Positions 1 through 28,834 of a stretch of DNA of 29,316 nucleotides are shown piece by piece. The DNA is from a virus. How positions within the stretch are numbered: position 1 is the first letter of the stretch; each line of letters begins with the position of its first letter. The notes under the pieces are model-generated. The model did no database searches and was not told the DNA's origin. It saw only the letters and a program-made list of their open reading frames with translations. The stretch lies in IMG/VR virus record IMGVR_UViG_3300025671_000357, positions 1-29,316 of that record; one strand, written 5' to 3'. The translations under genes were made by a program, and so were the position numbers.

Positions 1-338
1 GTTCCGCCGGGACTAATCGAGAGTGGGTCGACCTGCGGTGAACCAAGGGTATCGTAGCCAAACTGATACCTACCTGAAGCGTCGCCTCCTTGTCGTCCAA
101 AGTATAAGCCATCTTGATAGCTCCCATAAAACTGGTCTTGGGGGAATGTTGGCCCCGGCATAGAGTATCCGGCATTGTCACCAAGAAAAGCCATCTGTGT
201 GTCGGCGTACGGCATTTGCCCACCCGACGGGTTCATATTGTAACTCCCCGCAATCCGAGGCGCCATGTCGGTGCGCCCTTGACCTGCATATCCATAGGCT
301 GCGTTCAGAAGCGGGTCGTTGTACTTAAAGTTGGCCAT
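1..338 (-). CDS. Partial Gly/Gln/Tyr-rich protein, truncated by the left edge
   Basis: An open frame starts with ATG at 338 and runs without a stop to base 1, so at least 112 residues are coded and the C-terminus lies outside the window. The start (MANFKYNDPLLNAAYG) lies 9 bases after the stop of the muzzle-like gene, in the same direction, so it is probably co-transcribed. The visible part is rich in Gly, Gln, Tyr, Pro and Met, with almost no Lys after the first residues. Such low-complexity composition is common in phage virion or ejected internal proteins, but I do not recognise a family. A role in the tail or as an injected protein is inferred from position alone. Confidence 0.75.
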   Translation of the reverse strand, partial: MANFKYNDPLLNAAYGYAGQGRTDMAPRIAGSYNMNPSGGQMPYADTQMAFLGDNAGYSMPGPTFPQDQFYGSYQDGLYFGRQGGDASGRYQFGYDTLGSPQVDPLSISPGG

Positions 339-6095: not shown

Positions 6096-6892
6096 CAGTA
6101 CTTAGGCGCTTGCTTGAAGTTCTTACGAATCACGCGCAGTGCCTCATCCTTGTTGAATGTTCTCAGACGTGCGTTGGCCTTGCGTCTTTCGTTGTAGTAT
6201 TCTTGTCTTGCGCGGGCCTTCTCCGCATTGGGGACGCCTCTCTTGCGCTCGATGATTCGGAAGTACATGTATGCGCGAAGAGCCTCCTCTGCTTCCACAG
6301 GAACTTGAGGGTCCTTGGCTCTAGCCTCATCAGCCACGTACTCCACCACGATTACACCAGTCGTACCTGAGTCTGTCTCAAGCCTGTTCTGGTCTCTGTT
6401 CAGTCTGTACTCGCCTGCGTAGATGCCGCCACCGAGACCGTAGGTCCGCCCCACAGCTTGGTTGTAGGCGTAGTTGTTGAAGAGCAGTGCCTCCTCCTCT
6501 CCGAGGATACCCCCACCGCTTCCGCTCGTGTCGTCCTCTCTGTCGAAGAATCCGTCGCCATCACTGTCCACAGGGTCGTCTACATTCGTGTAGGCCTGAG
6601 ACATGTTGAGGTTGTCGTTCATGGCCAGCGGGTAGAACATCCCGTCAGAGCCTGCGAGTCCAACCCTTACGATGCTTGCAAAGTCATCGGGCAGGTTGTA
6701 GGTGCCATTGGTTTCGGGGGACAGCTTGAGAGAGCGCACCTTGCCTGAGATGTCAAACCCAAACTCCCGGATGCCGCGAAGTGCAACCTGACGTAGAAAG
6801 GTTCTAGTCACATTGCCAGCATAGTCATCACCCTCAGTAGAGATGAGGAAGTCGTTGATGATGTCCGCTACGCCTACTAGGTTGTGTGCCAT
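6095..6892 (-). CDS. Connector / ring-type protein with a calcium-loop insert
   Basis: 265 residues. The first 80 residues have the pattern of tail-tubular-A/ring adaptor proteins: a helical start (IINDFLISTE), a conserved TFLRQVALRGIREFGFD helix, then LKLSPETNGTYNLPDDFASIVRVGL, where the L-P-D-D-F motif is typical of these adaptors. The C-terminal half is a long basic helical region (residues 200-265), as in adaptors that clamp the portal. Residues 109-121 read DSDGDGFFDREDD, an acidic loop like a thrombospondin-type-3 or EF-hand calcium site, followed by a Gly/Ser run. It lies between another connector protein (3-base gap) and the muzzle gene (1-base overlap). In the crAss-like scheme it would be a ring protein; that is inference from order and motif. 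Confidence 0.65.
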   Translation of the reverse strand: MAHNLVGVADIINDFLISTEGDDYAGNVTRTFLRQVALRGIREFGFDISGKVRSLKLSPETNGTYNLPDDFASIVRVGLAGSDGMFYPLAMNDNLNMSQAYTNVDDPVDSDGDGFFDREDDTSGSGGGILGEEEALLFNNYAYNQAVGRTYGLGGGIYAGEYRLNRDQNRLETDSGTTGVIVVEYVADEARAKDPQVPVEAEEALRAYMYFRIIERKRGVPNAEKARARQEYYNERRKANARLRTFNKDEALRVIRKNFKQAPKY

Positions 6893-6895
6893 CTA

Positions 6896-7741
6896 TTACT
6901 GTCTTTGTTCTTTAACGTCCTCCTGAGCTGCGTGCTGGTATACCTCCTTGTCTCTGAGGTTCACACCGATTAACAATGCAAGCTCGTTTACCAAGTCCAT
7001 CACGTAGTGGTCTGGCAATTCAAAGTCGATGCTGTTCGAGTCATCGTAAACCTCCTTGTTGTTGGTCACGGTGTACGCGAACTTTGGGTAAGAGGCCGAG
7101 AGCGCTCCTGCCGTGGTAAGCCCTTCTGGGTTCTTGTAGTACACAAAGCTCACCCCCACCTCGTCAGCAGTGCCAGCACTGGTAGTGTCCTTGTTGAGAA
7201 CCAAGTCGTGAGGGTAGAGCTCAAGCGTAAGCCCTGTAATGTAACACGCGGGAAAGGCTTTGGTCGGTCTGGACAATGTGCTAGAAAGGACTGCTTGAAG
7301 CTTGTTCGCATCCTCGATAACCTCTACCGGGATAACCTCTGCGTTGGTCGATGCGTTGACGGCAGCACTATCCGATGGGGAAGTGATGGACGCAGCAGCT
7401 GGTTCGTAGAGAACCTCAATAACCCTGTTGAAGTTGGTAGGCAGAGCCAAGGGAACATTCAATCTTGGGTATGTTGTGTCTGGGTCTTCGTCAAGCTGAA
7501 CCCTAGTGATGAACCTAGATAGGTCTTGCTTGAGCCCACGGATGCGAGACTCAGCCATGCCGGGGTCTGTGCCACGAAGGCGTGCAGCTTGGGCCCGCTC
7601 AAGCTCCATCCAGATGTTGTTGTACACCTGCTGCTGTGCAGTACCTGCAAACTGATTGAATACCGCAGGGGTGACGAATCCTCTCTCGTCTTTGTTTGCT
7701 AGTCCCTGAAGCGTTGTATAGACCTCTCGTACGCTGGCCAT
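6896..7741 (-). CDS. Head-tail connector / ring-type protein
   Basis: 281 residues with the start chosen at MASVREVYTTLQGL (ATG at 7741). An in-frame ATG at 7774 would add 11 residues but lies upstream of the -7 promoter box at 7762-7769 and inside the terminator T-run, so it is unlikely to be used. The protein begins with a helical region (DERGFVTPAVFNQFAGTAQQ) and continues with beta-rich segments (PLALPTNFNRVIEVLYEP) and a C-terminal helix near LPDHYVMDLVNELALLIGV. The pattern of a basic helical N-terminus followed by an L-P-x-x-F strand fits adaptor proteins of podoviruses. It is the first gene of the tail transcription unit and lies just ahead of a second adaptor. The exact ring position is unknown. 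Confidence 0.6.
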   Translation of the reverse strand: MASVREVYTTLQGLANKDERGFVTPAVFNQFAGTAQQQVYNNIWMELERAQAARLRGTDPGMAESRIRGLKQDLSRFITRVQLDEDPDTTYPRLNVPLALPTNFNRVIEVLYEPAAASITSPSDSAAVNASTNAEVIPVEVIEDANKLQAVLSSTLSRPTKAFPACYITGLTLELYPHDLVLNKDTTSAGTADEVGVSFVYYKNPEGLTTAGALSASYPKFAYTVTNNKEVYDDSNSIDFELPDHYVMDLVNELALLIGVNLRDKEVYQHAAQEDVKEQRQ

Positions 7742-7761
7742 GTTGTTACTATTACTACCAG

Positions 7762-7769
7762 CAAATATA
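7762..7769 (-). promoter_or_regulatory. -7 promoter box TATATTTG for the tail operon
   Basis: The minus strand reads TATATTTG, matching the Bacteroidota -7 consensus TAnnTTTG, 20 bases before the chosen ATG at 7741. It directly follows a rho-independent terminator. A 16-base stretch around it (plus strand gcaaatataaacaaaa) is identical to the one before the portal gene. A -33 TTTG at the normal distance is not visible. Confidence 0.55.
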
Positions 7770-7772
7770 AAC

Positions 7773-7798
7773 AAAAAAGGGCCGCCCTAAGGCAGCCC
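7773..7798 (-). terminator. Rho-independent terminator after the capsid operon
   Basis: On the minus strand GGGCTGCC, loop TTAG, GGCGGCCC form an 8-pair stem with one G-T pair, followed at once by six T residues. It lies about 20 bases after the stop of the 286-residue gene and ends the head-gene unit just before the tail-gene promoter. Confidence 0.85.
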
Positions 7799-7819
7799 TC
7801 TTCCGCTAGGGTTATGGGG

Positions 7820-8680
7820 TTAGGCAATCTCCGAGAGTTGCCGTTCAATTTCTGTAAGTACAGAAGAGCCCTTGTCCGTGAGGCAGAAGCGCGTCAGGAC
7901 ATCAACTTCGTCCTGTCCGACAGGCACCCCTACGATTACTGCACCGCTGTCGAACCATGTGATGGCTCCACCCTTGTAGCGCAGAATCTGAAAGTCAAAG
8001 GCCTGCATGACTGACACGCGGGTCTGGACGATTGGGTTGTCGAAAAGGTCGATGAACTCCTGTGGCTTGGTCTTAGCAGCATTCACGAGAGCACGCTTGA
8101 TGGCGATGTTCTCTTGGTTTGTATTGATGTTCAAGCTAAGTGCAACAGGCAAAAGCTCTTCGATAGAGCGGGACTTAATCATCTGAATCGCGTCAGTGAC
8201 AAGGAAGTCTCTGTCGATGGTTGATTCCACCTTGGCTTCGGTATCGGCCATCTTGAAGATAGAACCACCGTTGGCTACGTTGCCCGGGTGTACGTTCAAG
8301 AACTCACGAAGGTTTGGCTTGGTGTAAGGAACCATCAACACGTTCTGGCGGAAGATGACTTGGCTACGTGTAGCTGCATCGCTCTGCTCGTCTCTCCAGA
8401 TGGAGGGCTCGTTGGCGCAGTAACGAATCTCGCGCACTCTACCACTCTCTTCGTCGTAGATGTTGACTCGGTTGTTGGCAAGCTTCAGGTAGACGCCGCC
8501 CCCGTAGGAGAAGTAGTAGACGTCCTGCTTGGACTTGTCCTTGAGGTTTCTTTTGATTGCTGGACGGCTCCGGTCAGTGGGAGGAGCATCCACGATTGCC
8601 TGTTCTTCAACGACAGGCTTTGCCGCAGCCGTTGGCGCGGTCTTCTTAGCGGGTTTCCGCTGGATAGTTTCTGTAGACAT
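7820..8680 (-). CDS. Conserved phage protein of unknown function (HPxN..NGG motif)
   Basis: 286 residues. The first 50 residues are Lys/Ala/Pro-rich and probably disordered. Residues 52-115 are beta-rich (VYYFSYGGGVYLKLANNRVNIY). Residues 116-142 hold the block MVPYTKPNLREFLNVHPGN followed by VANGGSIF, a motif I have met in marine and Bacteroidota phage proteins next to head and tail genes. The region after 145 is mainly helical (EELLPVALSLNINTN; TKPQEFIDLFDNP). No catalytic motif or membrane span is visible. It is the last gene before a strong terminator, so it belongs to the capsid unit. A structural or assembly role is inferred from context only. Confidence 0.7.
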   Translation of the reverse strand: MSTETIQRKPAKKTAPTAAAKPVVEEQAIVDAPPTDRSRPAIKRNLKDKSKQDVYYFSYGGGVYLKLANNRVNIYDEESGRVREIRYCANEPSIWRDEQSDAATRSQVIFRQNVLMVPYTKPNLREFLNVHPGNVANGGSIFKMADTEAKVESTIDRDFLVTDAIQMIKSRSIEELLPVALSLNINTNQENIAIKRALVNAAKTKPQEFIDLFDNPIVQTRVSVMQAFDFQILRYKGGAITWFDSGAVIVGVPVGQDEVDVLTRFCLTDKGSSVLTEIERQLSEIA

Positions 8681-8710
8681 GATTAAAAGAAATTAAAGTC
8701 AAACGAGTAG

Positions 8711-8742
8711 TAAGTGGGAGGAGGCAATTCCCCCTCCCCTTA
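8711..8742 (-). terminator. Strong GC-rich hairpin, possible terminator or processing site
   Basis: GGGAGGAGG at 8716-8724 pairs with CCCCCTCCC at 8730-8738 across a five-base loop. Flanking TAAG/CTTA pairs extend the stem past one bulge. It lies 8 bases after the stop of the 56-residue membrane protein. No T-run follows on either strand, so it may protect or process mRNA rather than terminate. Confidence 0.45.
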
Positions 8743-8749
8743 CCATATA

Positions 8750-8920
8750 TCACTTACGCTTACGACCGGTCAGGCCGTCGGTAATAGCTGTAATCAACAT
8801 ATCGACGTAACCAAAGACGACATTGTCGGCCTCGGATTTCGTGAGGTTGACCACGACCTTAGCAAAGGCCGCCAGTCCGATGAGCAAAGCTGCCCAGTTT
8901 TCAGCGATAAACGTCCACAT
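8750..8920 (-). CDS. Small membrane protein, holin-like
   Basis: A 56-residue gene from ATG at 8920 to TGA at 8750. It starts 11 bases after the stop of the structural gene upstream and fills an otherwise empty gap. The protein begins MWTFIAENWAALLIGLAAFA and continues KVVVNL, giving one hydrophobic helix at about residues 4-26. A short polar linker (TKSEADN) and a second weaker amphipathic stretch (VVFGYVDMLITAI) follow. It ends in a positive tail (GRKRK). One or two short hydrophobic segments, tiny size and a basic C-terminus fit phage holins, and very similar small proteins occur beside head genes in marine phages. Lysis function is inferred; a membrane-linked assembly factor is the alternative. 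Confidence 0.65.
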   Translation of the reverse strand: MWTFIAENWAALLIGLAAFAKVVVNLTKSEADNVVFGYVDMLITAITDGLTGRKRK

Positions 8921-8930
8921 TAGTCAGCTA

Positions 8931-9635
8931 TTAGCTGAGTGTGATAGAACCTGTAGCATCGCCCACACCAGTCACGAACCAAGTTGGTCCGTTTCCAGTA
9001 GTAGAGGATGAAACACACTTGCACTCAATGAAGTCTCCCTCGGTAGCTGTAGAAGCAGCAAAGGTGAGTACGTCGCGGTCAGCAACAGGTGTCGCAGAGT
9101 TGTTGATGTCGATAGTTCCGAAGAACAACTCCTCAGCAGTAGAACCGTCAGTAGTTGAAGTGATGGTAGCTCCGTTGGCACCCATTGCAGCATCCAAAAC
9201 GAAGGTGTACTCCAGTCCAACGGCAGGCGTTGGGAGCTTCAAATCGACGTCGTCGTTCACAATGACAATAGCCCCTGAGTCAGCAGCAGACAGAGTACCT
9301 GTAGCTGGCTCAATAACGTGGAAACGAGCGACAACAGGAACACCGTTGATGGTGGCAGCGCTTACGCTAGTCACGTCAGCGAGACCTGCGAAGTCGTTGG
9401 TCACATCGTCGAGGACAACAGTGCGCTCACTCTTGATGAGGTCAGCCAACCCGCGTGCAACCTCGTGCTCCGTACCTGCAGTGCAGTTCAAAGCGAGGGC
9501 GTCACGGGTAGGAGTGTCACCAGAGTCAACAGTTCTAAAGTTTGCAGTAACCAAGGTGGCTGCGATGTTCATTGACTCAAAGTCTCTTGAGTTGAACACA
9601 GCACCTGCGTTAGAGGCAGTCTTTACAATAATCAT
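8931..9635 (-). CDS. Probable head decoration or minor structural protein
   Basis: 234 residues, rich in Thr, Ala, Val, Ser and Asp with few Lys/Arg, and a repeated beta-strand look (ATGTLSADSGAIVIVND; LEYTFVLDAAMG; GDFIECKC; GPTWFVTGVGDATGSITLS). The C-terminal half resembles the small beta domains seen in phage decoration proteins and fibre repeats. It lies directly downstream of the major capsid gene, where decoration proteins usually sit. Its ATG is preceded by AGAACAA, as at the capsid gene, suggesting strong translation. I do not recognise the N-terminal part (residues 1-80) beyond an alpha/beta pattern. Confidence 0.6.
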   Translation of the reverse strand: MIIVKTASNAGAVFNSRDFESMNIAATLVTANFRTVDSGDTPTRDALALNCTAGTEHEVARGLADLIKSERTVVLDDVTNDFAGLADVTSVSAATINGVPVVARFHVIEPATGTLSAADSGAIVIVNDDVDLKLPTPAVGLEYTFVLDAAMGANGATITSTTDGSTAEELFFGTIDINNSATPVADRDVLTFAASTATEGDFIECKCVSSSTTGNGPTWFVTGVGDATGSITLS

Positions 9636-9661
9636 TTGTTCTAGGTGTTAAAGGTTAAAGA

Positions 9662-11113
9662 TTAGGCCTTAATCAACACGTGTTGGTTAGCAGCACGAGT
9701 CACCAATGCACACTCAGAACGGTAGTTGAACTTGGCCGTGTCTTCGGTCGTGTTACGGAATCCGAGGATAGAGCCAGTCACCCAGTGCTCCAACTCACGA
9801 GAGTATCCACCTGCAGCCTTGTAGTTCAACTCCAAAGCAGGAGAGCGGTCACCCGTAGTTGGGTCAGTCACTGTAGCCAATGGGCACATCACACCAGCAA
9901 CCAAGTTGGCAGCTTCAGTAGAGCCTCCCAAGAGCGTTGGGTCATTCAACAACTTCCAGCTGTGCTTGTGGAAAGTGTATCCACCGCGTGAGAAGGAAGA
10001 GAAACCGAGCTGAACAGCCATGTCAGGTGAGTTCTGGAATGCACCGTATGAAGCGGTGACACCAGCGATACCAGCCTTGGATGAACCGCCACCCTGAGCG
10101 ACCATGTCGTCGAGGCGCAAGTTCTGTTCAGTGTTCGCGTAGATAGCGTACTCAGGAGCGGAACCCTGCTTGTCGAACTCGATAATGAGGTCGTCCAAGT
10201 CAGCGAAACCACCGTCGTTACCGACGAGTCCGTTGGTCACCAAGCCACGAGCCTCGAGAGCCGTGATGTAACCTTCGTTACCGTCGATGTCCGTGATGTT
10301 GCTGTTGGTAGCTTCCTGACCGAACAAGAGTGTCATTTCACGCTTGTCCAAGAAACGCTGACGGGCATCCATTTCGCCCTTGATGTACCAGCGGTAGTCG
10401 CCGCCGCCTACGTCAATGTAACCAATGTTGGTGGCCTGTGAACCAGTCACCTCGTAGTTACCCTTGATGATAGCGTATGGCTTCTGGTAACGAACCACGT
10501 TAGATTCAACGAATCTGCCGGGCTGCTCTGAACCTTCGGCCCAGATGTTACCAATCACTGGCATGTCAACGACAGCACCGTTACCCAAGGTAGAAGCTGC
10601 GTCGCGCAACAACTTGGCCTTGAAGGTAGCAGTAGAGTTCGCAGAACCCTCTTCGGTAACGACCGCACGGTCGATTCCGTTAATCAAGAGGATGTCACCC
10701 TTCATTGGGGTGTTTGGACGAACGTCACCATCACCGCCAGAAGCAATAGACGCCTCAGCGTCAGCTTGGCTTTCAGCAGTGAACGTCATCTCAGCCACGT
10801 TAGCATCGCCTGAAGCGTATCCAGTAGTAACCGCAGCGCGGACCTTCTGGTGCAGACGAGCCTCCTCGTAGTAAGTGATTTTTTCGGCAGAGCCAGCAGC
10901 CTTGACGGCTCCGGTCATACGCAAGAATCCGGTAATGCCCTGATTACCGTAAGTTTTGATGAGTTCTGGACGAACGTCAAGGGCGTTAATAGTGCTCATG
11001 AAATCACCCAGAGAAGCGTACTTCTCAGGCGTTGCCAATCCAACCTGTGAATAGGCACCTCCGACAGAACCGCCGAGTGAACCATGAACATTAGGAGAAA
11101 CGATGTTGCTCAT
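9662..11113 (-). CDS. Major capsid protein (HK97-fold type)
   Basis: 483 residues, a typical size for this fold. The protein has a Gly/Ser-rich N-arm, a region with alternating strand and helix (VESNVVRYQKPYAIIKGNYEVTG), a long helix near GEMDARQRFLDKREMTLLFG corresponding to the spine helix, and a C-terminal block from residue 437 (YSRELEHWVTGSILGF, then FNYRSECALVTRAANQHVL) that I know from capsid proteins of Bacteroidota phages. It follows a Pro/Glu-rich scaffold-like gene and precedes a decoration candidate, the classic order. The leader AAAAAGAACAATT before the ATG is A-rich and lacks a Shine-Dalgarno site. Hundreds of copies would form the icosahedral head. Confidence 0.85.
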   Translation of the reverse strand: MSNIVSPNVHGSLGGSVGGAYSQVGLATPEKYASLGDFMSTINALDVRPELIKTYGNQGITGFLRMTGAVKAAGSAEKITYYEEARLHQKVRAAVTTGYASGDANVAEMTFTAESQADAEASIASGGDGDVRPNTPMKGDILLINGIDRAVVTEEGSANSTATFKAKLLRDAASTLGNGAVVDMPVIGNIWAEGSEQPGRFVESNVVRYQKPYAIIKGNYEVTGSQATNIGYIDVGGGDYRWYIKGEMDARQRFLDKREMTLLFGQEATNSNITDIDGNEGYITALEARGLVTNGLVGNDGGFADLDDLIIEFDKQGSAPEYAIYANTEQNLRLDDMVAQGGGSSKAGIAGVTASYGAFQNSPDMAVQLGFSSFSRGGYTFHKHSWKLLNDPTLLGGSTEAANLVAGVMCPLATVTDPTTGDRSPALELNYKAAGGYSRELEHWVTGSILGFRNTTEDTAKFNYRSECALVTRAANQHVLIKA

Positions 11114-13569: not shown

Positions 13570-13875
13570 TTACCACTTGACTTTGTCGGCCCAGTAGGCA
13601 GCGCTCATCTTGCCTTTCTTAATGTTCTTGGCGTGTCTAGCCTTGAAGCTTGCACGCTTCTTCTTCATTCTATCCGACTCACCAGCCTTGGGCTTGCCAG
13701 CAGTCTCAGCTCCCTTCTCTCCAAAGCGGATGAGCTTGACTTTGTCACCCTCTTTTGCCAACACCATGTGTGACTTCTTGGGGTGACTTGGTGTAGCCTT
13801 TGGTTTGTTGACGCCTTTGAGTCCGTGCTTATTTAGCATGCGCTTAACGCGCTCTCTCATTGCCTCTTTGCTCAT
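13570..13875 (-). CDS. Small basic portal-linked phage protein
   Basis: 101 residues, about a quarter Lys/Arg. The first 30 residues form a helix (KEAMRERVKRMLNKHGLKGV). A middle segment (KSHMVLAKEGDKVKLIRFGE) leads into a C-terminal block KKKRASFKARHAKNIKKG followed by KMSAAYWADKVKW. The F-x-A-R-H ... Y-W ... W pattern recurs in many tailed phages as a short stand-alone protein near the portal. Its function is unknown; the charge suggests nucleic-acid or capsid-interior binding. It overlaps the portal stop by 4 bases (ATGA), so the two are translationally coupled. Confidence 0.65.
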   Translation of the reverse strand: MSKEAMRERVKRMLNKHGLKGVNKPKATPSHPKKSHMVLAKEGDKVKLIRFGEKGAETAGKPKAGESDRMKKKRASFKARHAKNIKKGKMSAAYWADKVKW

Positions 13876-20831: not shown

Positions 20832-21278
20832 ATGAAGAGACACAGACCTGAGCGCAAAATGCGGGAGTTCTCCTACCTCCACGAGAAGTACGTGAACAAG
20901 AACTACCTCAAGTATCTAAAGCTCGCAGAGACAGACATGCTGCAGCATTACGACGTTAGGCCAGTAGAGATGCAGGTGATGTTGTTTGGTTACGACTACG
21001 AGTTCTTTACCGCGACGCACATCGCAAAGTCATTGTTTGCATCCCCCAAGAAGTTCAGAGAGCGCACGCTACAACCCATGATGAAGAAGGGGTTAATACA
21101 CGTGGTACACCGTAGGTTCAACGTGGACACAGGAAGCGAGGCCGACATGTACTTCACAGAGGAAGCTAAGGCGAACTACAAGCACAGGTACGGTCTTACG
21201 CCCAAGGCAAGACACCTCGTGCAGAGGTTCTATCGCAAGCTAGAGGGCGAAGAGGCGATTAAGATTTCCCGTGAGTGA
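20832..21278 (+). CDS. MarR-like winged-helix DNA-binding protein
   Basis: 148 residues, the only convincing protein gene on the plus strand. After a basic N-terminus (MKRHRPERKMREFSYLHEKY), residues 40-95 have the MarR-type pattern: a dimer/helix start (DVRPVEMQVMLFGYDYEFFT), a helix-turn-helix (ATHIAKSLFASPKKFRERTL, positions 61-80), then QPMMKKGLIHVVHRRF as strand and wing. Residues 118-138 (HRYGLTPKARHLVQRFYRKL) match the L-T-x-x-A closing helix of such proteins. It would bind DNA as a dimer, perhaps at its own divergent gap. Its 3' end overlaps the convergent minus-strand gene by 20 bases. The ATG at 20832 is used here; ATG at 20859 is an alternative. Confidence 0.75.
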   Translation: MKRHRPERKMREFSYLHEKYVNKNYLKYLKLAETDMLQHYDVRPVEMQVMLFGYDYEFFTATHIAKSLFASPKKFRERTLQPMMKKGLIHVVHRRFNVDTGSEADMYFTEEAKANYKHRYGLTPKARHLVQRFYRKLEGEEAIKISRE

Positions 21279-21450
21279 CGGTCTTGAATGACGCCTTCTC
21301 TACAGCTCCGGGGTGAGGCTTGTAGTCTCCCTTCATCAGAAAGTACCTACCTCCCTCTTCCATCCAGTGGTAGCCCTTGGGAGGGTCTACCGTAACCTTC
21401 TTGCTCAAGACCTGAAGACCACCCTTCTTGTATTTCTTTACAGTGTTCAT
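21259..21450 (-). CDS. Small basic hypothetical protein with a KYKKGG motif
   Basis: 63 residues, Lys/Gly-rich. The N-terminus carries KYKKGGLQVL (residues 6-15), a copy of the aromatic-x-x-Gly-Gly motif that recurs in other small genes of this cluster. Then PPKGYHWMEEGGRYFLMKGD suggests one beta-hairpin. It overlaps its upstream neighbour by 4 bases (ATGA) and converges on the plus-strand regulator gene, overlapping it by 20 bases. No function can be assigned. Confidence 0.6.
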   Translation of the reverse strand: MNTVKKYKKGGLQVLSKKVTVDPPKGYHWMEEGGRYFLMKGDYKPHPGAVEKASFKTVTHGKS

Positions 21451-21590
21451 GCGTTGTCTGCCTTAAGCTGAGCGAAGTAAGCATGCTCGGTAGGGAAGCT
21501 TTCTTGGGGATAGGCCGCAAGAAAGATGTCACAGTACTCGTAGATTTCTTCCGAGCTAAATGAAGTTTGTTCTGGCCACTGGTCTTCCAT
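21447..21590 (-). CDS. Very small hypothetical protein (47 residues)
   Basis: ATG at 21590 shares one base with the stop of the preceding gene, and TGA overlaps the next ATG by 4 bases, so tight coupling on both sides supports a real gene. The protein reads MEDQWPEQTSFSSEEIYEYC, then DIFLAAYPQESFPTEHAYFA and QLKADNA. It is acidic with aromatic residues and a probable helix at the C-terminus. I do not recognise it. Without it the 137-base gap would be the only unexplained one in the cluster. Confidence 0.6.
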   Translation of the reverse strand: MEDQWPEQTSFSSEEIYEYCDIFLAAYPQESFPTEHAYFAQLKADNA

Positions 21591-22027
21591 CAGTATGTCT
21601 TTGTTGCGGTTTGAGCAATGTCTGCGTATCCATCTCTAGACAGAGTGAAGTCTATTCTGATTGTGTGACCCACCGCTCCGCTGACCAAGGTTTGTACATT
21701 TTGTCCAGTAAGCAAGATGTAATAACCATCACCCGATTGACCCAGCGGCGTGTTGTAGGCAGTGTCTGCTGGAGTTGCTGTATCGCTCGTAGTCTCGTTG
21801 GTCCAAGTGATGTTCTTTAGAGTGTAGTCGCCAATCGTTCCACTCCAGTCGTTGGCGAAATCAATTATTGTAGAGACGGTCGTACCCCTAAGCGTACCCG
21901 ATAAGGCGCTCTCTGGAGTGGTAAACACTCCTACGGTTGTCACCGTCCACTCTGTAATCCGAGAAGGAAGTTGTCGAATACGAGCTTGTGACCTTCTGCG
22001 GGCCGATGAATTTGCTAGTCTTCTCAT
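21590..22027 (-). CDS. Hypothetical beta-rich protein with a basic N-terminus
   Basis: 145 residues. The first 23 residues are strongly basic (MRRLANSSARRRSQARIRQL). The rest is an immunoglobulin-like or fibre-like beta domain rich in Thr (ITEWTVTTVGVFTTPESALS; DYTLKNITWTNETTSDTATP; HTIRIDFTLSRDGYADIAQT). It overlaps the giant calcium-loop protein gene by 4 bases, so the two products may act together. The basic head with a single beta domain could dock on a partner or on DNA. The family is not recognised. Confidence 0.6.
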   Translation of the reverse strand: MRRLANSSARRRSQARIRQLPSRITEWTVTTVGVFTTPESALSGTLRGTTVSTIIDFANDWSGTIGDYTLKNITWTNETTSDTATPADTAYNTPLGQSGDGYYILLTGQNVQTLVSGAVGHTIRIDFTLSRDGYADIAQTATKTY

Positions 22028-25000
22028 GTTGTTTCAGTCGGGGTTGGTGGCGGAAGAGGGAAGCTAGGCAGAGGGGCGTAGTCTTGGTCGTACGTGATTC
22101 CAGAATCCCAGTCAGAGCCGAAGTAGTTTACTGGCAAGAGGTTATCTCCTCCAAAGTCAATCCAAACACCCGATTCGTTAAAGTAACCAAACAGGTTCAT
22201 GGTGGCACTATCGAGGTTTCCGTCCTCCGAAAAGCTTCCGAAGAATGCCGTGAACTGGTCAATGTCAGACTCGTCAAATACTTGGTCTCCATTGATGTCG
22301 TACCCGGCAAGACCCATATTTGAAATCATATCGTAGTCTCCGCCCAGCTGTGTGTTCAGAAGGTCGATAAACGAAGCGAAGGCCTGTACGTCGGCATAGC
22401 TAAACACTCCGTCAGAGTTGAGGTCAAACGGTAGGTCTGGGTTTGGAGAAACCCCACTGTTGATAAATTGATTCAGCAGAATCGAAGTAGCCTGAGGAGA
22501 ACCCGGTGCGTAGCTGCCTGCGGTAACATCGTAAGTACCGTCAGTAGCGGTGGCGTAGAAGGTTGCTGCGCCCCAAGCAAATTGCTCTCCATCAAGACCA
22601 TTAAAGAGAGTGGTAGCCGCATATTCTGTGTCAAGGATGTCTCCAAACATAGCCAGTGCTGCAACGTTGTCTCCAACGGCTGTGATAGTATCATTGGCAA
22701 AGAACCCAGCTCCAAACTGTCCAGAGGTTTCAAAGAAGCCATTTTCCCAAAGGAACGTGCCAAGAATGAGGACATCATCTCCTTCAATCAAAGACCGACC
22801 TCCTTGAACGGCAGATGTGTTGTAGGAATTAACTAGGTCGAGCCATGATTGTCCATTCTGAACCGCATTCTCGATAAAGCCCTGAAGAGACGACCAAGCT
22901 AGTGCATCACTGTTGTCGAAAACACCGTCACCATCGAGGTCGAGGTTCAACGGTAGGCTTGAGCCAGAGTTGTAGTTTCCGACGTAAGCTGCGATGTAGT
23001 TCTGATTGGCAATAGAAATCAAGTCGTTATACAGGCCATCTGCAAGAGATGTTCCGTTCGACTGGAAGTTGATTGCCATGCCATCGTTGTCGAGCACCGC
23101 TCCCACTCCAGCATTAAGACCAACCGCATCGAGGTAGTCTACATACGCTAGGAGCTCTGCGTTGGTGGGCAGGTTGTTCGCTACACCGCTTCCTCCTCCA
23201 AAGTTGGTAGGGTTGAAAATAAAGAAGGTTCCACCTCCATCATTCCAAAGAACCCCATCAAAATCACCTGATGCAAAAGGCGCGAATGATGGCGGGGCTT
23301 GCTGATTTGTGTACCATTCCGGCACAGAGCCCGTGTCTTGGGTTTCTTGTACTGCCTCCCAGTAGTAGAAGAAGCTTGCAGTAATACCCAAAAGAGCACC
23401 CACCTCTGAGCTGCTATAGGTCCCGGTGTAAGCATCTCCTGCCCCGCTGTATCCGGTAAACGAAAGGTAAGCATCAAAGGCTCCTCCTTGAGGAACCAAG
23501 CTATCGAGAGCTGATGCCCAAGCAGGCATTCCCCCAAAAGGGTCTCCTTCATTCGGGGTAAAACCTCCAAACCCGAGCCAGTTAAGTTGATAGCCGCTTA
23601 GGTCACCGTAGCTTCCGTTTCCAAAATTTTGAAAGAAAGCATTGCCTTGGAGGCCATCGTAAAGTCCAAATTGTTGCCAATTAGTTCCGGAGTTGTAGTT
23701 GTTGACCACACCTCCTCCTTGCATGAGGAACTGCCAAAGGTGACACCAGTCGGCAAAGTTAATCTGACCGTCGCCACCAAAGTCAACAAGTCCGTTTGCA
23801 GACCTGAGCCAGTTCTTCCAGCTGTAGCTATCTGCTGGAGAATTGAGGCCTTCTCCCCCGTCGAACAAGCTAAGTGCGTTTGCGCCAAGCGGTGGGATGA
23901 GGATGGTAGCGTTAGCCGTGTTAAAGGTGTAGAATACCGTACCGTCTGCGACGTTCACGTAATCGTAGTGACCCTCGAGGCTAGGGTCCTGACCAAAGTT
24001 AAAGTAACCGTACCCGTACCCAAGAACATTTAGGAACTGAGTAAAGCTAGGTGCATCAAATCCAAACTCATCTGCAATGTCATTATCCGAAAAGCCTTGT
24101 GCAACCCAGCCAATGTATTCATCCCAAAAAGCCTCGTATCCGTCGGTAAGCATTGAGGTGTACTGCCCTTGACCCAAAGCCCAATCAAAGAAGCTTGCGT
24201 CTAAGAAGCCAATACTGAAAAAGATGTCCGTCGTAACAAGCGTGTCATAGGTAGCGCCATACGGCATCTGAAGTGCCAAGAACGTCGAGAGCTGATAGTC
24301 AGTCCAAGTGCCATCACTAAGAACGTCCAGCACTCCCGGCGGTTGGTACTGGTTGGTGATAAAGTCATACCAAACCGTTGACTCAATCAAACCGGTGGCG
24401 AGCGAGTTTCCTGAGTAACCCGTCGCAAAACCACTGATGGTAATTATGTTTGGAACACCCGGAACGAGGGCTGTTGGGCCCGCAGTATTAAGAAAGTTCT
24501 CTACCTGCTGAAGAACGTTCGGTTGGCTGAAGTCGTAGCTAGTTCCAAACACCTCGTTAAGACTATCCAAGTACTCTTGCACCAAGGTGCTATCTACCGT
24601 ATCCCCCGTCGCCCCAAAGATTTGAGTCATCAAAGAGTCGGTATAAATCTGGGACCATGTGCTCAAGTCATTGCCTTGCTGGCTGGGGTTGCCGTTTTGA
24701 GAAAGGTTCACATCGTAAAGCTGCCTCCACTGCTGAGTGTTAATCATCAGGTTGAGGTAGGCGTATGGCGCGATGGTGCCGTTAGGCGTTCCCGTCACTC
24801 CTTGTGTCGTGGGCCTATTCTCCAACCAAACACTACCCGGCGTGCTCTCATTTAGAGTCGGCGGGTTCAAGATGACAAACAGAGACTGGTCTGTTAGGTT
24901 ATCCAGACCATCAAAGCTGCTGTACGGGCTGGTTCCGGTGGTAATGAAATAGGCAGGGTAACCATTATTGTCGATGTACTCGATGTACCCGCCGCTTCCT

Positions 25001-27033
25001 CCGGTGATATATCCGTAGTCAAGTCCATCATTGTACCATTGGACAAAGGCCAAGTAGTCCAGCCAAGGGCTAAGTCCATCAGGGTTTGGAAGCCCCGGGT
25101 CATTGGCCGAACCCCAGAGCGCGGCGAGCAAGAACGGGTTGTTGTCCGCGCCGAACAGCAGGTCTGCTTCTGTTGACGTTATGCCCCAAAGGAAACCTGC
25201 ATTTGACCCTCCGTTAAATACAGTCGATGCGTATTCGCTTGCACCGACGTCGTTAAAGTAGTCTGGCCACCAATCTGTGCCCGGTATTCCAATGGTGCCC
25301 AAGCTGTCTATCCCGAATGGATAGTTCATCCACATGAACGTGGCAATCTGCATCTCTCCAAACCCGGTGTTGGCATTTGGCAGCATCCAGTTGGGCCATG
25401 GAGCATCGTTAAAGATGTCGGTCAGGTTGTTTTCAGCAAGCCAGTTGGTGTCAAAAATTAACGGGCCATTCGGGCCGTCCAGCGTAAGAATGTCTTCTAA
25501 CGTAAATGTCAGAGCTGGAGAGTCGGGTAGATACTGACCGTCGTTAAAACCATCGGCCATGTCTTGAGCGTAGTTGTAGAACCACGTCATACAATCCGTC
25601 CACCAAGCCCCGAGGTTGTCGATAGCGTTAAAGTTGTCAGGACCATTTTGTCCCCAGTCGATGTCGTAGTTAGAGCGCCAAAGAGCTGTACTGGAGAGTG
25701 CGAAGTTAATGGCGTTTGACTGAAGGTCTGGCCGCTCGGCCTCCCACGCATCAAAAGTTGGTGGGGGGAGAGGGGGTCCATCGACAATCCCGATGAGGTC
25801 TAGCTGCGCTTCTCCCGCTCCTGAGATGTCGTTAATGTTCTGGGTATCATCCCATACTCCATTTGTATCGAAGTAAAGGTTACCAGACCCGATTGATGTG
25901 CCGTAGTAGTTGTAGTATTCTACAATGGCATCAATGTCTTCCTGAGTGTAGATGCCGTTGCCTGCAGAAATAGTCACAGACTCACCGTTTTGGATTGCCT
26001 GAACAACTTGAATCATTTCAGTCACATCCAACCATGCCGTGATGTCCTCACCATTGAAGGTGCCATCCCCATTTACATCAAAAGAAGCAAGAGTAAAGTT
26101 AGACTCTAGAGAGCCTGTGAGTGCGTTTGCAGCAAGCCCGAGCTCTCCTCCTGAAGATTGTACCGTATCGAGCCATTGGGACAAGTTGTTATCGCTATAC
26201 CCAAGAGGGTCTCCCGTCATGTTGTACAGAGCGACGTCTGCGTAGATGTTAAGCAAAGGCAACATGTTCAGGTCGAACCACGAGCCTAGGTCATCAAGGT
26301 CTTCTGCTGTAGGGTTGGGGTTTACAAGGAGGGTTTCAAAGAAGTCTGCTGGAACGTCACCCTGATATGCGTTAAAGACCGCTTCAAATGCGTTGCCTCC
26401 GTCGGCAGCGTTTCCGGTGGCTGCAAATAAATTCCAGTCAAACGGTGCCAGAAAGAGTTCGTTATCTAGCAGGTCTTGAAACGTGGTATAAGAACCGTCC
26501 CCGGTCGCCGGGTCATAACCCCCTTGAGGGTTGTAAAACATCCCGTACCCCCAGTTAAAGTTCACTCCCGTTATGTCCAAGAAGACATTTCCAAGGTTGT
26601 ATGTAAAACCGTCTGCCGCCCCGGATGGAGACTGCCCGGCCATCTGAGCCCAGAAGTCAACAATAGAAAGTGCGTCGTAAATATCAAGGGTGCCGTCAGG
26701 AGCCCCATCGGGTCCGTAGGTGTCCATGTTTCCACCAGCAAAAGAGATAGCACCACCAAGTGCTCCGATAGATTGTCTGTAGGACTCGGGTAGCTGTGGG
26801 GGGTCTTGCTCTGTTACAGGCGGTGGGGGTGGCGGGTCGCCGCTCGGGTCAAATCCACCATCGGTTTGCGTACCGTCCTCTTCCTCGTCCTCCTTCTTCT
26901 TTAGGTAGGCCTTGTTTAGAGCTTCGTCATCGCCAAGAGGCTCGCGCTTGATGACTTCATCAGGTGCAAGCGGTACTGCCTTCTCGCCGTGTTCTGGGTC
27001 GCGGAAGGTGTCCGATAGCTTCTTCAGCTTCAT
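22024..27033 (-). CDS. Giant acidic protein with EF-hand/dockerin-like calcium loops
   Basis: 1669 residues. After a Lys-containing N-terminus with TFRDPEHGEKAVPLA (9-23) and a Pro-rich linker (66-72), the protein is extremely poor in Lys/Arg and rich in Asp, Asn, Gly, Trp, Tyr and Phe. Loops of type D-x-N/D-x-D-G-x-x-x-x-x-D followed by a hydrophobic helix start at residues 319, 1365 and 1537. A Gln for Gly variant starts at 1579, and degenerate ones lie near 109, 356, 903 and 1084. Such loops are typical of type I dockerins and EF-hands and imply Ca2+ binding. A motif of type A/G-x-x-x-G-h recurs near 622, 987 and 1213. No signal peptide or membrane helix is visible. It is flanked by small genes, overlapping one by 4 bases. 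A virion surface adhesin or internal protein is inferred; I recognise no whole-length family. Confidence 0.75.
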   Translation of the reverse strand: MKLKKLSDTFRDPEHGEKAVPLAPDEVIKREPLGDDEALNKAYLKKKEDEEEDGTQTDGGFDPSGDPPPPPPVTEQDPPQLPESYRQSIGALGGAISFAGGNMDTYGPDGAPDGTLDIYDALSIVDFWAQMAGQSPSGAADGFTYNLGNVFLDITGVNFNWGYGMFYNPQGGYDPATGDGSYTTFQDLLDNELFLAPFDWNLFAATGNAADGGNAFEAVFNAYQGDVPADFFETLLVNPNPTAEDLDDLGSWFDLNMLPLLNIYADVALYNMTGDPLGYSDNNLSQWLDTVQSSGGELGLAANALTGSLESNFTLASFDVNGDGTFNGEDITAWLDVTEMIQVVQAIQNGESVTISAGNGIYTQEDIDAIVEYYNYYGTSIGSGNLYFDTNGVWDDTQNINDISGAGEAQLDLIGIVDGPPLPPPTFDAWEAERPDLQSNAINFALSSTALWRSNYDIDWGQNGPDNFNAIDNLGAWWTDCMTWFYNYAQDMADGFNDGQYLPDSPALTFTLEDILTLDGPNGPLIFDTNWLAENNLTDIFNDAPWPNWMLPNANTGFGEMQIATFMWMNYPFGIDSLGTIGIPGTDWWPDYFNDVGASEYASTVFNGGSNAGFLWGITSTEADLLFGADNNPFLLAALWGSANDPGLPNPDGLSPWLDYLAFVQWYNDGLDYGYITGGSGGYIEYIDNNGYPAYFITTGTSPYSSFDGLDNLTDQSLFVILNPPTLNESTPGSVWLENRPTTQGVTGTPNGTIAPYAYLNLMINTQQWRQLYDVNLSQNGNPSQQGNDLSTWSQIYTDSLMTQIFGATGDTVDSTLVQEYLDSLNEVFGTSYDFSQPNVLQQVENFLNTAGPTALVPGVPNIITISGFATGYSGNSLATGLIESTVWYDFITNQYQPPGVLDVLSDGTWTDYQLSTFLALQMPYGATYDTLVTTDIFFSIGFLDASFFDWALGQGQYTSMLTDGYEAFWDEYIGWVAQGFSDNDIADEFGFDAPSFTQFLNVLGYGYGYFNFGQDPSLEGHYDYVNVADGTVFYTFNTANATILIPPLGANALSLFDGGEGLNSPADSYSWKNWLRSANGLVDFGGDGQINFADWCHLWQFLMQGGGVVNNYNSGTNWQQFGLYDGLQGNAFFQNFGNGSYGDLSGYQLNWLGFGGFTPNEGDPFGGMPAWASALDSLVPQGGAFDAYLSFTGYSGAGDAYTGTYSSSEVGALLGITASFFYYWEAVQETQDTGSVPEWYTNQQAPPSFAPFASGDFDGVLWNDGGGTFFIFNPTNFGGGSGVANNLPTNAELLAYVDYLDAVGLNAGVGAVLDNDGMAINFQSNGTSLADGLYNDLISIANQNYIAAYVGNYNSGSSLPLNLDLDGDGVFDNSDALAWSSLQGFIENAVQNGQSWLDLVNSYNTSAVQGGRSLIEGDDVLILGTFLWENGFFETSGQFGAGFFANDTITAVGDNVAALAMFGDILDTEYAATTLFNGLDGEQFAWGAATFYATATDGTYDVTAGSYAPGSPQATSILLNQFINSGVSPNPDLPFDLNSDGVFSYADVQAFASFIDLLNTQLGGDYDMISNMGLAGYDINGDQVFDESDIDQFTAFFGSFSEDGNLDSATMNLFGYFNESGVWIDFGGDNLLPVNYFGSDWDSGITYDQDYAPLPSFPLPPPTPTETT

Positions 27034-27036
27034 GGC

Positions 27037-27591
27037 TTACTTCTTTCTGCTGTCCTTAATCATTCGGACGAAGTCCACGGGGTCCATTACCCCGAAGCCT
27101 CCCTGCTCAAAGGTTCGCATCATCTTTCCGCCGCCCTTGTAGCTTGGGGTCTTCGCCCCTCTTTTGGCAAGCATCATACCCTCCTCACCTGTTTGTAAAG
27201 GTCCTGTGCCTGAGCCAGAGACTTCGGCTGAGGGAGCATCTTCAGTACCGAACGTAGGCACCTCGATGTCCTCCATAAGCTCAGTGAAGCCAATGATGTT
27301 ACCATCTTCATCGTAGGTGTACTCGTACTGGCCAGTGCCGATTTGCTGCGTCTCACTTCCTGTCTGAACAGTTTGCTGTGCAGTGTATGGGTCACCCATT
27401 ACCGTGGTTCCGGTTTGCTTGCGTGACACCTCTCCTGCCAATGGCTCAGACTTAGCCCCGTGCTCTGGGTCTCGGAATGTAGAGAAGTCGGCGGGGTTGT
27501 TTCTTACAGCCTTGTCTGTAGCTGCTTTTCTTGCGGCTGCTGTGCCACGGGCGGGCATGCTGCCACCCTCTTGCATCTTCTTGGTTCTCAT
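27037..27591 (-). CDS. Hypothetical protein with GG motifs and a tag shared with its neighbour
   Basis: 184 residues. Residues 5-10 are KMQEGG, 150-155 SYKGGG and 160-165 TFEQGG, three copies of the cluster's aromatic/Met-x-x-Gly-Gly motif. Residues 38-52 (TFRDPEHGAKSEPLA) closely match residues 9-23 of the giant protein encoded next. The middle is polar and Thr/Gln/Gly-rich (TAQQTVQTGSETQQIGTGQY) and looks disordered, with a short acidic block. The C-terminus is basic and helical (DPVDFVRMIKDSRKK). It starts 4 bases inside the upstream gene and ends 3 bases before the giant gene. No enzyme motif; a virion-internal or adaptor role is only a guess. Confidence 0.6.
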   Translation of the reverse strand: MRTKKMQEGGSMPARGTAAARKAATDKAVRNNPADFSTFRDPEHGAKSEPLAGEVSRKQTGTTVMGDPYTAQQTVQTGSETQQIGTGQYEYTYDEDGNIIGFTELMEDIEVPTFGTEDAPSAEVSGSGTGPLQTGEEGMMLAKRGAKTPSYKGGGKMMRTFEQGGFGVMDPVDFVRMIKDSRKK

Positions 27592-28082
27592 AGGTTCAGT
27601 TTTGCGATGACAACATCATTGAGGTCGATGTACTCGATGCGAACATCCCCCCCATTGTTAAGTGCCTTTAGAATTTTTGGGTACACTCTCTTGTACGCCT
27701 GTGTTGATTTGCCGATGAATCCATCATCCACGAGCTGATTGTTCTCTTGGCTGTCACCAAGTAGAAGACATCCTGCTGTGTGCTCGTCTGTGTTGCCACA
27801 GTGGATGAGGATGTATTCAAAGTTGGGAACGTCTCGCACCCAGAGCATGCCCTCATGGATGTCGGGAAAACGCTCGGAGTACTTGGCGTGAAACCCGCCC
27901 TCGGTCCGAAGCGTGATGTCGTATGTCCCCTCAGGGATTCGGGTCTCCCCGTACTTCTTCTTCTCCCGCTCCTCGTCCTCCAAAGTGTAGCACAGGAACT
28001 CACGCCCATCAGGGAGCAACTCAAACAACATGCCGTTGGTCGAGTCGCCGCTATCGGAGAATCTGAGTACCTGCAGGTGCAT
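27588..28082 (-). CDS. DUF5675-like protein with an L,D-transpeptidase-like His/Cys motif
   Basis: 164 residues. The architecture fits my memory of DUF5675: an N-terminal strand pair (GMLFELLPDGREFLCYTLED), the segment KYGETRIPEGTYDITLRTEG (44-63), VRDVPNFEYILIHCGN, then TAGCLLLGD (102-110). His94 and Cys105 lie in I-H-x-G-N-T ... T-x-G-C-h-h, which resembles the H-G ... S-x-G-C core of YkuD L,D-transpeptidases. That makes a cell-wall role (peptidoglycan cutting or crosslinking at entry or lysis) plausible but unproven. No signal peptide is present, as in holin-dependent endolysins. It overlaps the upstream stop by 1 base and the downstream start by 4 bases. Confidence 0.75.
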   Translation of the reverse strand: MHLQVLRFSDSGDSTNGMLFELLPDGREFLCYTLEDEEREKKKYGETRIPEGTYDITLRTEGGFHAKYSERFPDIHEGMLWVRDVPNFEYILIHCGNTDEHTAGCLLLGDSQENNQLVDDGFIGKSTQAYKRVYPKILKALNNGGDVRIEYIDLNDVVIAKLNL

Positions 28083-28378
28083 TACTTCTTCGTCTTCTTC
28101 TTGAGGAACATTCCCTTATTGGCCTTAGGAGTCTTTGCTTCCTTGGCCGCAGACTTCATGGACTCGGTCTTGTTGCCGTCCCCATCAATGTCGATGTAGT
28201 CTGGCTTGCCGCCCTGAGCGAACTTCTGAGTCTTACCTCCGTACGCAAACGTCCGCTTGGACAGCTTGACGCCTCCGCCCATCATCATCTTCTTGATTTC
28301 GTCCATGGACATCTGCTTGACGTTACCGCCTGCGTAGTAAACAGGGTAGGTGCTCCCTTTCTTTTTTGCTTTTGCCAT
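28082..28378 (-). CDS. Small basic protein with GG repeats and a DGDGN loop
   Basis: 98 residues with Lys-rich ends. It carries VYYAGG (13-18), MMMGGG (31-36), TFAYGG (43-48) and KFAQGG (52-57), the densest set of the aromatic-x-x-Gly-Gly motif in the window. Residues 61-74 read YIDIDGDGNKTESM, which looks like half of an EF-hand calcium loop but lacks the closing acidic residue. Similar short proteins with a G-D-G-N-K-T-E patch occur in marine phages as I recall. The C-terminus is a run of Lys (FLKKKTKK). A -7 box lies 20 bases before the ATG. Function unknown; packaging into the capsid is one possibility. Confidence 0.6.
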   Translation of the reverse strand: MAKAKKKGSTYPVYYAGGNVKQMSMDEIKKMMMGGGVKLSKRTFAYGGKTQKFAQGGKPDYIDIDGDGNKTESMKSAAKEAKTPKANKGMFLKKKTKK

Positions 28379-28397
28379 CTCGTTCTTGTTGAGGTTA

Positions 28398-28405
28398 CAA
28401 ATCTA
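28398..28405 (-). promoter_or_regulatory. Candidate -7 box TAGATTTG
   Basis: Minus strand TAGATTTG matches TAnnTTTG and lies 20 bases before the ATG at 28378, in the 33-base gap after the upstream gene. A -33 TTG is only present too close (12 bases), so this is a weaker call. Confidence 0.35.
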
Positions 28406-28411
28406 ATAAAA

Positions 28412-28834
28412 TTATCGCAAGTCTGTATCGTGCTTCTTGGAGCCCTTGATGAAGCTGTTGACTCTTCCCATCGCCCATGCAGCCATACTTGTCTTGGGCC
28501 TTGAGCCGCTGGACAGATACGCACCCTGACCTCTACGATACACCTTCTTGAGTGTAGCAAGAGACTTGCCGGATGACTTGGCTTTCTTCTTGAGCGAGGC
28601 AATGGTAGATGCGTTCAAGGGCTTACTATCTTCCTTGGCCCCCTTGCCCTTCTTTACCTCACCACCTTCCTTGTACTTCTGTCGTTCATCAAAGTAGCTG
28701 TCGGGGAGTCGCTTCCCTTCTTTGTAGGCCTCTTGGCCCTCCTTGATGGTTTCGGCTCTTGCCGCCCGATTGGGTGAGCCAGCGAGGTACTTCTCAGGAA
28801 GCCCCGTCTTCTTGTCCTTCTTTACCGCTTGCAT
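28412..28834 (-). CDS. Small basic phage protein with two conserved segments
   Basis: 140 residues. The N-terminal segment TGLPEKYLAGSPNRAARAET (10-29), with an aromatic/Lys pattern behind it, resembles what I remember as DUF5824. The C-terminal segment ATLKKVYRRGQGAYLSSGSR, then SMAAWAMGRVNSFIKG, is a separate short domain frequent in phages and giant-virus-like genomes. Between them lie KYKEGG (53-58) and a Lys-rich linker. The high Lys/Arg content suggests DNA or RNA binding. The start at 28834 overlaps the preceding small gene by 41 bases in another frame, a longer overlap than elsewhere here. Domain names are from memory and unchecked. Confidence 0.65.
   Translation of the reverse strand: MQAVKKDKKTGLPEKYLAGSPNRAARAETIKEGQEAYKEGKRLPDSYFDERQKYKEGGEVKKGKGAKEDSKPLNASTIASLKKKAKSSGKSLATLKKVYRRGQGAYLSSGSRPKTSMAAWAMGRVNSFIKGSKKHDTDLR

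Follow-up and report, generated by a model that had tools for sequence, protein, structure and literature searches.

PhixxGG, a motif recurring across unrelated small proteins in an uncultured crass-like phage: a candidate virion-cargo tag

INTRODUCTION

Four small proteins of an uncultured virus carry copies of the same short string, a hydrophobic residue (Phi), two variable residues and two glycines. The question raised by this locus is whether such copies in separate genes reflect composition or a common signal and, if a signal, what it directs. The first-pass annotation had suggested sorting, for example into the capsid, or double-glycine processing.

The window spans a complete IMG/VR virus record (29,316 bases), which is probably fragmentary, and all genes discussed lie on its minus strand. 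Its terminase shares 40.8% identity with Flavobacterium elemo phages and 46.9% with MW202828, and its portal is akin to those of the elemo phages, MW202828, and Cellulophaga and Tenacibaculum phages of the Pervagoviridae and Pachyviridae (families of the isolates according to PMC8776804). The relationship of both proteins to Pervagoviridae, Pachyviridae and elemo phages places the window among the crassvirus-related podophages. The nearest long relatives are records of 54.6 kb (L011, G001) and 53.7 kb (L013, G002), in which one of the 51 proteins scanned matched the crassvirus muzzle domain PF25729 (E 2.8e-5). Judged by these similarities, the source is an uncultured crass-like phage with many aquatic relatives, and the host presumably belongs to the Bacteroidota.

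RESULTS AND DISCUSSION

Motif copies within the window

The eight strings named in the first-pass annotation lie in four minus-strand ORFs (Table 1). That list was incomplete, as it left out MEEGG in the 63-aa protein and MMMGG and MMGGG in the 98-aa protein. Homologues have Q or R in place of the first Gly of MEEGG, so that this copy probably forms a turn within a folded domain. The four proteins had been called otherwise unrelated, and indeed no similarity beyond the motif was detected among them, every pairwise BLASTP comparison giving E 0.48 or worse. They had also been called basic, which does not apply to the 184-aa protein (23 K+R against 26 D+E).

Table 1. Motif-bearing proteins of the window and their motif copies
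Feature	Coordinates	Strand	Remarks
140-aa protein	28412..28834	-	HTVC111P gp58-like module, motif linker and DUF5824 module; PF19141 E 1.1e-9
YKEGG, residues 54-58 of 140-aa protein	28661..28675	-	Linker between two modules; homologues have 1-3 copies here
98-aa Lys-rich protein	28082..28378	-	5 motif copies (overlapping or separate), then KPDYIDIDGDGNKTESMK module
YYAGG, residues 14-18 of 98-aa protein	28325..28339	-	Phi and GG in 8/8 homologues
MMMGG and MMGGG, overlapping, residues 31-36 of 98-aa protein	28271..28288	-	Missing from several homologues
FAYGG, residues 44-48 of 98-aa protein	28235..28249	-	Phi and GG in 8/8 homologues
FAQGG, residues 53-57 of 98-aa protein	28208..28222	-	Immediately precedes KPDYIDIDGDGN module; missing in homologue L118
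184-aa protein	27037..27591	-	MRTKKMQEGG as N-terminal tag; motif twice more in C-terminal part
MQEGG, residues 6-10 of 184-aa protein	27562..27576	-	Closes 10-residue N-terminal tag; motif in 9/9 homologues
YKGGG, residues 151-155 of 184-aa protein	27127..27141	-	C-terminal copy
FEQGG, residues 161-165 of 184-aa protein	27097..27111	-	Near C-terminus; F and GG invariant in 9/9 homologues
63-aa protein	21259..21450	-	N-terminal tag MNTVKKYKKGG, then small conserved domain
YKKGG, residues 7-11 of 63-aa protein	21418..21432	-	Closes N-terminal tag; in 9/11 close homologues
MEEGG, residues 30-34 of 63-aa protein	21349..21363	-	Fits the pattern; left out of tag count

Together the four proteins contain 12 GG pairs. 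Tyr, Phe or Trp stands three residues before the first Gly in seven of these, and Tyr, Phe or Met in 11. When each protein was permuted with its composition preserved, the corresponding means were 0.55 and 0.91, and none of 2000 shuffles reached seven or 11, respectively. With GG held fixed, binomial P values are 4.8e-6 (Y/F) and 9.2e-10 (Y/F/M), both post hoc and calculated over copies that may be non-independent within one protein. The motif had been seen before the test was made, so replication in relatives matters. The remaining 21 minus-strand ORFs of the window, with 77 GG pairs, show no excess (8 seen, 7.7 expected).

The codons of both glycines and of Phi differ among the copies. This rules out a repeat or recombination signal at the DNA level and indicates that selection acts on the peptide. 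Across homologues Phi and GG are kept and the two residues between them drift; in the FEQGG copy of the 184-aa protein these two have conservation values of 0.67 and 0.44, against an all-column mean of 0.73. The motif is nevertheless missing from some homologues. Two close homologues of the 63-aa protein have NKGGK in place of YKKGG, and sister-clade proteins have SER[AP]K, which suggests that for this protein the tag is dispensable in some phages.

Several other features of these genes were observed. Roseobacter phage CRP-901 (L203) encodes the domain of the 63-aa protein at 9001-9114 (tblastn, 65.8%), where no gene is annotated. The 184-aa protein (27037-27591, minus strand) and the neighbouring 1669-aa protein (22024-27033, minus strand) have a common N-terminal stretch, FRDPEHGxK...PL, possibly another signal shared by neighbouring genes; the 1669-aa protein also has a weak match to dockerin type I (PF00404). 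A basic protein of 101 aa encoded after the portal gene (13570-13875, minus strand) lacks the motif, has relatives in many of the fetched phages, and gave no Pfam match above the cut-off.

Consensus and recurrence in relatives

The true consensus is [M/Y/F]-x-x-G-G, often preceded by Lys or Arg. The earlier description of the motif as aromatic holds for Tyr and Phe and was too narrow, as Met is as good or better. Among 921 dereplicated small proteins of related loci, position -3 of GG is occupied by Met in 77 cases, where 20 would be expected (z 12.6), and by Tyr in 46, where 25 would be expected. Across 1997 proteins of uncultured loci, Tyr or Phe occurs at this position 171 times (97.8 expected) and Met 124 times (40.5 expected). 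At loci chosen for the PDYIDID module, described below, Met is again in excess (30 seen, 13.7 expected) and Tyr or Phe is not (32 seen, 28.9 expected). The loci in these wider sets were chosen because they have homologues of window proteins and are not a random sample of phages; their genes were called as simple longest ORFs, and diverged members of a single family are still counted separately after dereplication. In 51 proteins with at least two copies, the first position of the 154 copies is M in 74, Y in 52 and F in 28. In 53 of them Phi directly follows K or R, and in 94 an M, V or L stands two positions past GG.

Many proteins of uncultured relatives, unrelated to one another, thus carry PhixxGG, at frequencies above expectation. 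Isolate and named phages differ. In 418 proteins from 11 stretches there was no excess (Y/F 15 seen, 16.8 expected; Met 6 seen, 5.5 expected). The small proteins in the stretches of phi38:1, phi18:3, elemoE, Gundel_1, Panino and MW202828 show none, which rules out a general property of Bacteroidota podophages. The large proteins of Gundel_1 do show an excess (10 seen, 3.2 expected; 1/100 shuffles). Searches by tblastn with the motif-rich proteins found no motif-bearing isolate beyond relatives of single modules, and the host or prophage carriers of the motif were two MAG contigs only. A regular expression for a DKITGADF-type module gave zero matches.

A strictly late-gene signal was considered and rejected as stated, since early-strand proteins of G001 and G002 are enriched too (7 seen, 1.6 expected, some of these ORFs being possibly spurious).

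The suggestion of a common signal is therefore sustained at the protein level: the offset is exact, Phi and GG are conserved, the codons are free, the pattern is replicated in relatives, and it is frequent as an N-terminal tag.

N-terminal tags and module junctions

The motif is found in two ARRANGEMENTS: as an N-terminal tag and at module junctions. The tag consists of the initial Met, a stretch containing Lys or Arg, and the motif. It occurs in 30 of 1783 dereplicated complete ORFs, several of these rows being diverged homologues of one family, compared with a mean of 3.6 when N-termini were shuffled (200 rounds, never more than 10); a smaller count gave 24 of 970 against 2.2. The ends of the motif peak at residues 10 and 11 (7 and 9 cases). 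Residues 9-13 hold 22 motif ends, compared with 12.1 per five residues further in, and are depleted of GG pairs that lack Phi (24 against 37.8). The tags are 10-12 residues long, with basic leaders rich in Lys and Arg, and end in GG. The N-terminus of a 406-aa protein of L099 (MKAKKDNTKKYAVGG) is doubtful as a tag, as homologues have a hydrophobic, Gly-rich segment where its GG falls in the alignment.

The 140-aa protein fuses two modules that are encoded by separate neighbouring genes, gp58 and gp59, in pelagiphage HTVC111P, and YKEGG lies between them. Three homologues (L082, L011 and L124) have two or three copies at this junction, with extra segments between them. Some of these segments, lying between two motif copies, are Gly-rich, hydrophobic and glycine-zipper-like, and are absent from the window version. 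In dereplicated DUF5824 proteins, PhixxGG lies upstream of the domain in 10 of 25 when Phi also includes L, I and V, and in eight with Y, F or M. An AlphaFold model of L124 (mean pLDDT 60.6) has a confident, helical DUF5824 part.

The module downstream of FAQGG, KPDYIDIDGDGNKxExMK, occurs in many aquatic phages, including S-SCSM1_92, where it is annotated 'virion protein'. A scripted count of 55 distinct junctions found Phi-x-E directly before the module in 22 and PhixxGG in seven, compared with 5.1% and 3.3% when positions in these proteins were taken at random. After inspection by eye the counts were 19 and eight, with L121 moved to PhixxGG and L332 and L343 recognized as start-codon artefacts. 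A looser count, allowing the motif up to 12 residues upstream, was weak (7/30, against 11%). Both the S77 prohead protease and gp23 were present in three of 30 records, two of them with Phi-x-E (G029/L350 and G035/L362) and one classed 'other' (G033/L357). They were in none of 10 PhixxGG, SPAK-type or window-lineage records, most of the records being fragments. In other phages (L314 and L316) the module is preceded by repeats of GSPAK or SPMEM, which would be in keeping with a lineage-specific separator at this place.

Comparison with known head-targeting sequences

In phage T4, a 10-residue N-terminal capsid-targeting sequence (CTS) suffices for head entry; residues 4 and 7 are mainly responsible for targeting and residues 8 and 10 for processing, and gp21 cuts internal proteins after L/I-x-E (PMC9026906; see also PMC9958956). 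The picture is similar in SPN3US, with an AxE signature (PMC10052503).

The tags described here resemble the T4 CTS in that about 10 residues are found at the N-terminus of unrelated proteins, with a hydrophobic residue at a fixed distance before the end, and in that the T4-type signature also precedes shared modules in other phages. In contrast to the T4 CTS, the tags end in GG rather than (L/I)xE, their leaders are basic, and no gp21 homologue was found. Packaging and, more speculatively, cleavage would be candidate roles of PhixxGG. Since they end in GG, the tags are not filed as a T4-type CTS. The head propeptides of SPN3US and phiKZ (A-x-E or S/A-x-E) offer a parallel, in that a short, lineage-specific signature is found on many head proteins; there, however, the protease is known, the cut sites were determined by mass spectrometry, the propeptides are mostly longer, and there is no GG. 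Phi-crAss001, compared here by its published description, is a phage of related type with cargo genes after the tail genes, and the treatment of cargo proteins in its structure paper mentions no such motif (PMC10172136). Head-entry tags on phage proteins are thus of a known kind, and searches of open-access literature turned up no description of such a motif or, for proteins of crass-like phages, of a tag of the GG type.

Alternative explanations

The reading placed first is a virion-cargo tag, set out below. Nearly as likely, and itself still short of probable, is a plain structural role: PhixxGG would end a Lys-rich helix, GG breaking the helix and Phi packing back, wherever small helical modules are joined, and no receptor would be needed. 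All three copies in the L124 model are placed at helix ends, albeit in a model of low confidence (pLDDT 60.6), and internal copies lie between modules. Phi at -3 and the hydrophobic second residue after GG (94/154) also resemble helix C-capping patterns. By itself, however, a helix stop leaves the 10-12 residue N-terminal tag common to unrelated proteins unexplained, and isolate relatives also have small helical proteins, yet show no excess of the motif. Composition offers a further account that dispenses with a specific receptor, in which Lys, aromatic residues or Met, and Gly would make up a low-complexity, multivalent stretch able to bind or condense DNA. The Lys-rich surroundings and the repeated copies, up to nine per protein, are in keeping with this; the exact spacing and the conservation of Phi-x-x-G-G go beyond what composition would need, and the 184-aa protein, not basic overall, does not fit. 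This account is highly unlikely.

Two of the alternatives involve cleavage. The motif might serve chiefly for processing: as the head matures, a protease of phage or host origin would cut after GG, freeing the tags and separating mini-modules. The copies between modules, the free choice of residue after GG, and the Phi-x-E that precedes the PDYIDIDGDGN module in other phages, matching the gp21-type L/I-x-E rule, would suit such a site. Against it, no S77, S78 or other peptidase was recognized among the scanned proteins of G001 and G002, PF03420 (S77 prohead protease) was absent from G001, G002, G040 and G041 (fragments or near-complete records), and the model obtained for a 273-aa protein, encoded between portal and scaffold, was beta-rich and of poor quality. 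DUF5675 in a 164-aa neighbour had only a sub-threshold Tlde1-like match. Processing as the chief function is thus considered unlikely. Double-glycine processing in the sense of class II bacteriocins, with an N-terminal leader cut by a C39 peptidase/exporter, is very improbable indeed, and in this sense the first-pass suggestion finds no support. C39 leaders are likewise N-terminal and end in GG, and glycine-zipper-like segments do lie between two motif copies in L082 and L011. The consensus C39 leader is, however, acidic and helical, with hydrophobic residues at -4/-7/-12, whereas the leaders here are basic with Phi at -5 from the putative cut, and further copies lie mid-protein and at the C-terminus. 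Pfam scans of the relatives' proteins found no C39 peptidase. GG-specific cleavage of another type is conceivable.

A possible virion-cargo tag

Under the cargo-tag reading, the phage would mark virion cargo with the protein-level motif [K/R]-[M/Y/F]-x-x-G-G-x-(often M/V/L), which would close a basic leader of 10-12 residues at N-termini and lie, as internal copies, between small mobile modules. A step of head assembly would recognize it, via scaffold, portal or capsid interior, and so load the head with its cargo, one larger protein besides others that are mostly small and basic; ejection of this cargo along with the DNA could follow. More speculatively, the motif may also be cut after GG, as the T4 CTS is after L/I-x-E.

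The larger protein, of about 600 aa, is encoded in G001, G002 and G004 (truncated in G004, where the stretch ends) and begins with MKASKRKFNQGG or MKVSKRNFQRGG, that is, with the tag. Its gene comes after a homologue of an ejection-type protein. For L099 (406 aa), of this ejection-type family, the matches include a 'structural protein' of an elemo phage and a PHROG made up of virion structural proteins, and the first ORF of the window (1-338) resembles the start of the ejection-type gene. The gene for the protein of about 600 aa sits in the slot of phi18:3 gp121, annotated as structural from MS/MS; this equivalence is one of gene order, no sequence similarity to gp121 was detected, and the isolate counterparts lack the tag.

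From these observations we infer late expression, virion location and recognition of the tagged proteins. The capsid as destination, as first proposed, is plausible in view of gene position, the tag on the protein in the cargo slot, and the module preceded by T4-type cleavage signatures elsewhere. The cargo tag is nevertheless given somewhat less than even probability because no peptidase was recognized in Pfam scans of the relatives' proteins, early-strand proteins are enriched, and a helix stop would account for the motif without a receptor.

Phi-x-E or PhixxGG before the PDYIDIDGDGN module, taken with the T4 CTS and the AxE of SPN3US, gives rise to the idea that this mini-module may be preceded by the head-processing or targeting signature of the local lineage, which here would be GG. 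A fuller GG-type system of head targeting and maturation, in which cargo is tagged, packaged mini-proteins are separated and an unrecognized protease cuts after GG, would be a tailed-phage counterpart of the T4 LxE system; it is decidedly unlikely at present. GG-specific maturation is found in some eukaryotic DNA viruses, to which such a system may be likened.

If the motif is a packaging tag, a sequence rule would predict which of the uncharacterized small proteins of uncultured crass-like phages are carried in the virion and delivered to the host, and the tag could be a handle for loading foreign proteins into such phages, like that of T4. The role of the many small basic mini-module proteins of aquatic phages would become directly testable by mass spectrometry.

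Met-rich proteins with four to nine motif copies are encoded close to where the late region ends in G001, G002 and G004 (L090:16246-16749, L087:2797-3540 and L095:13230-13658, all on the plus strand). L095 also encodes a giant late protein of 2922 aa (1714-10482, plus strand), which has the LPD38 domain of polyvalent proteins (E 3.6e-33) and weakly matches an ADP-ribosyltransferase.
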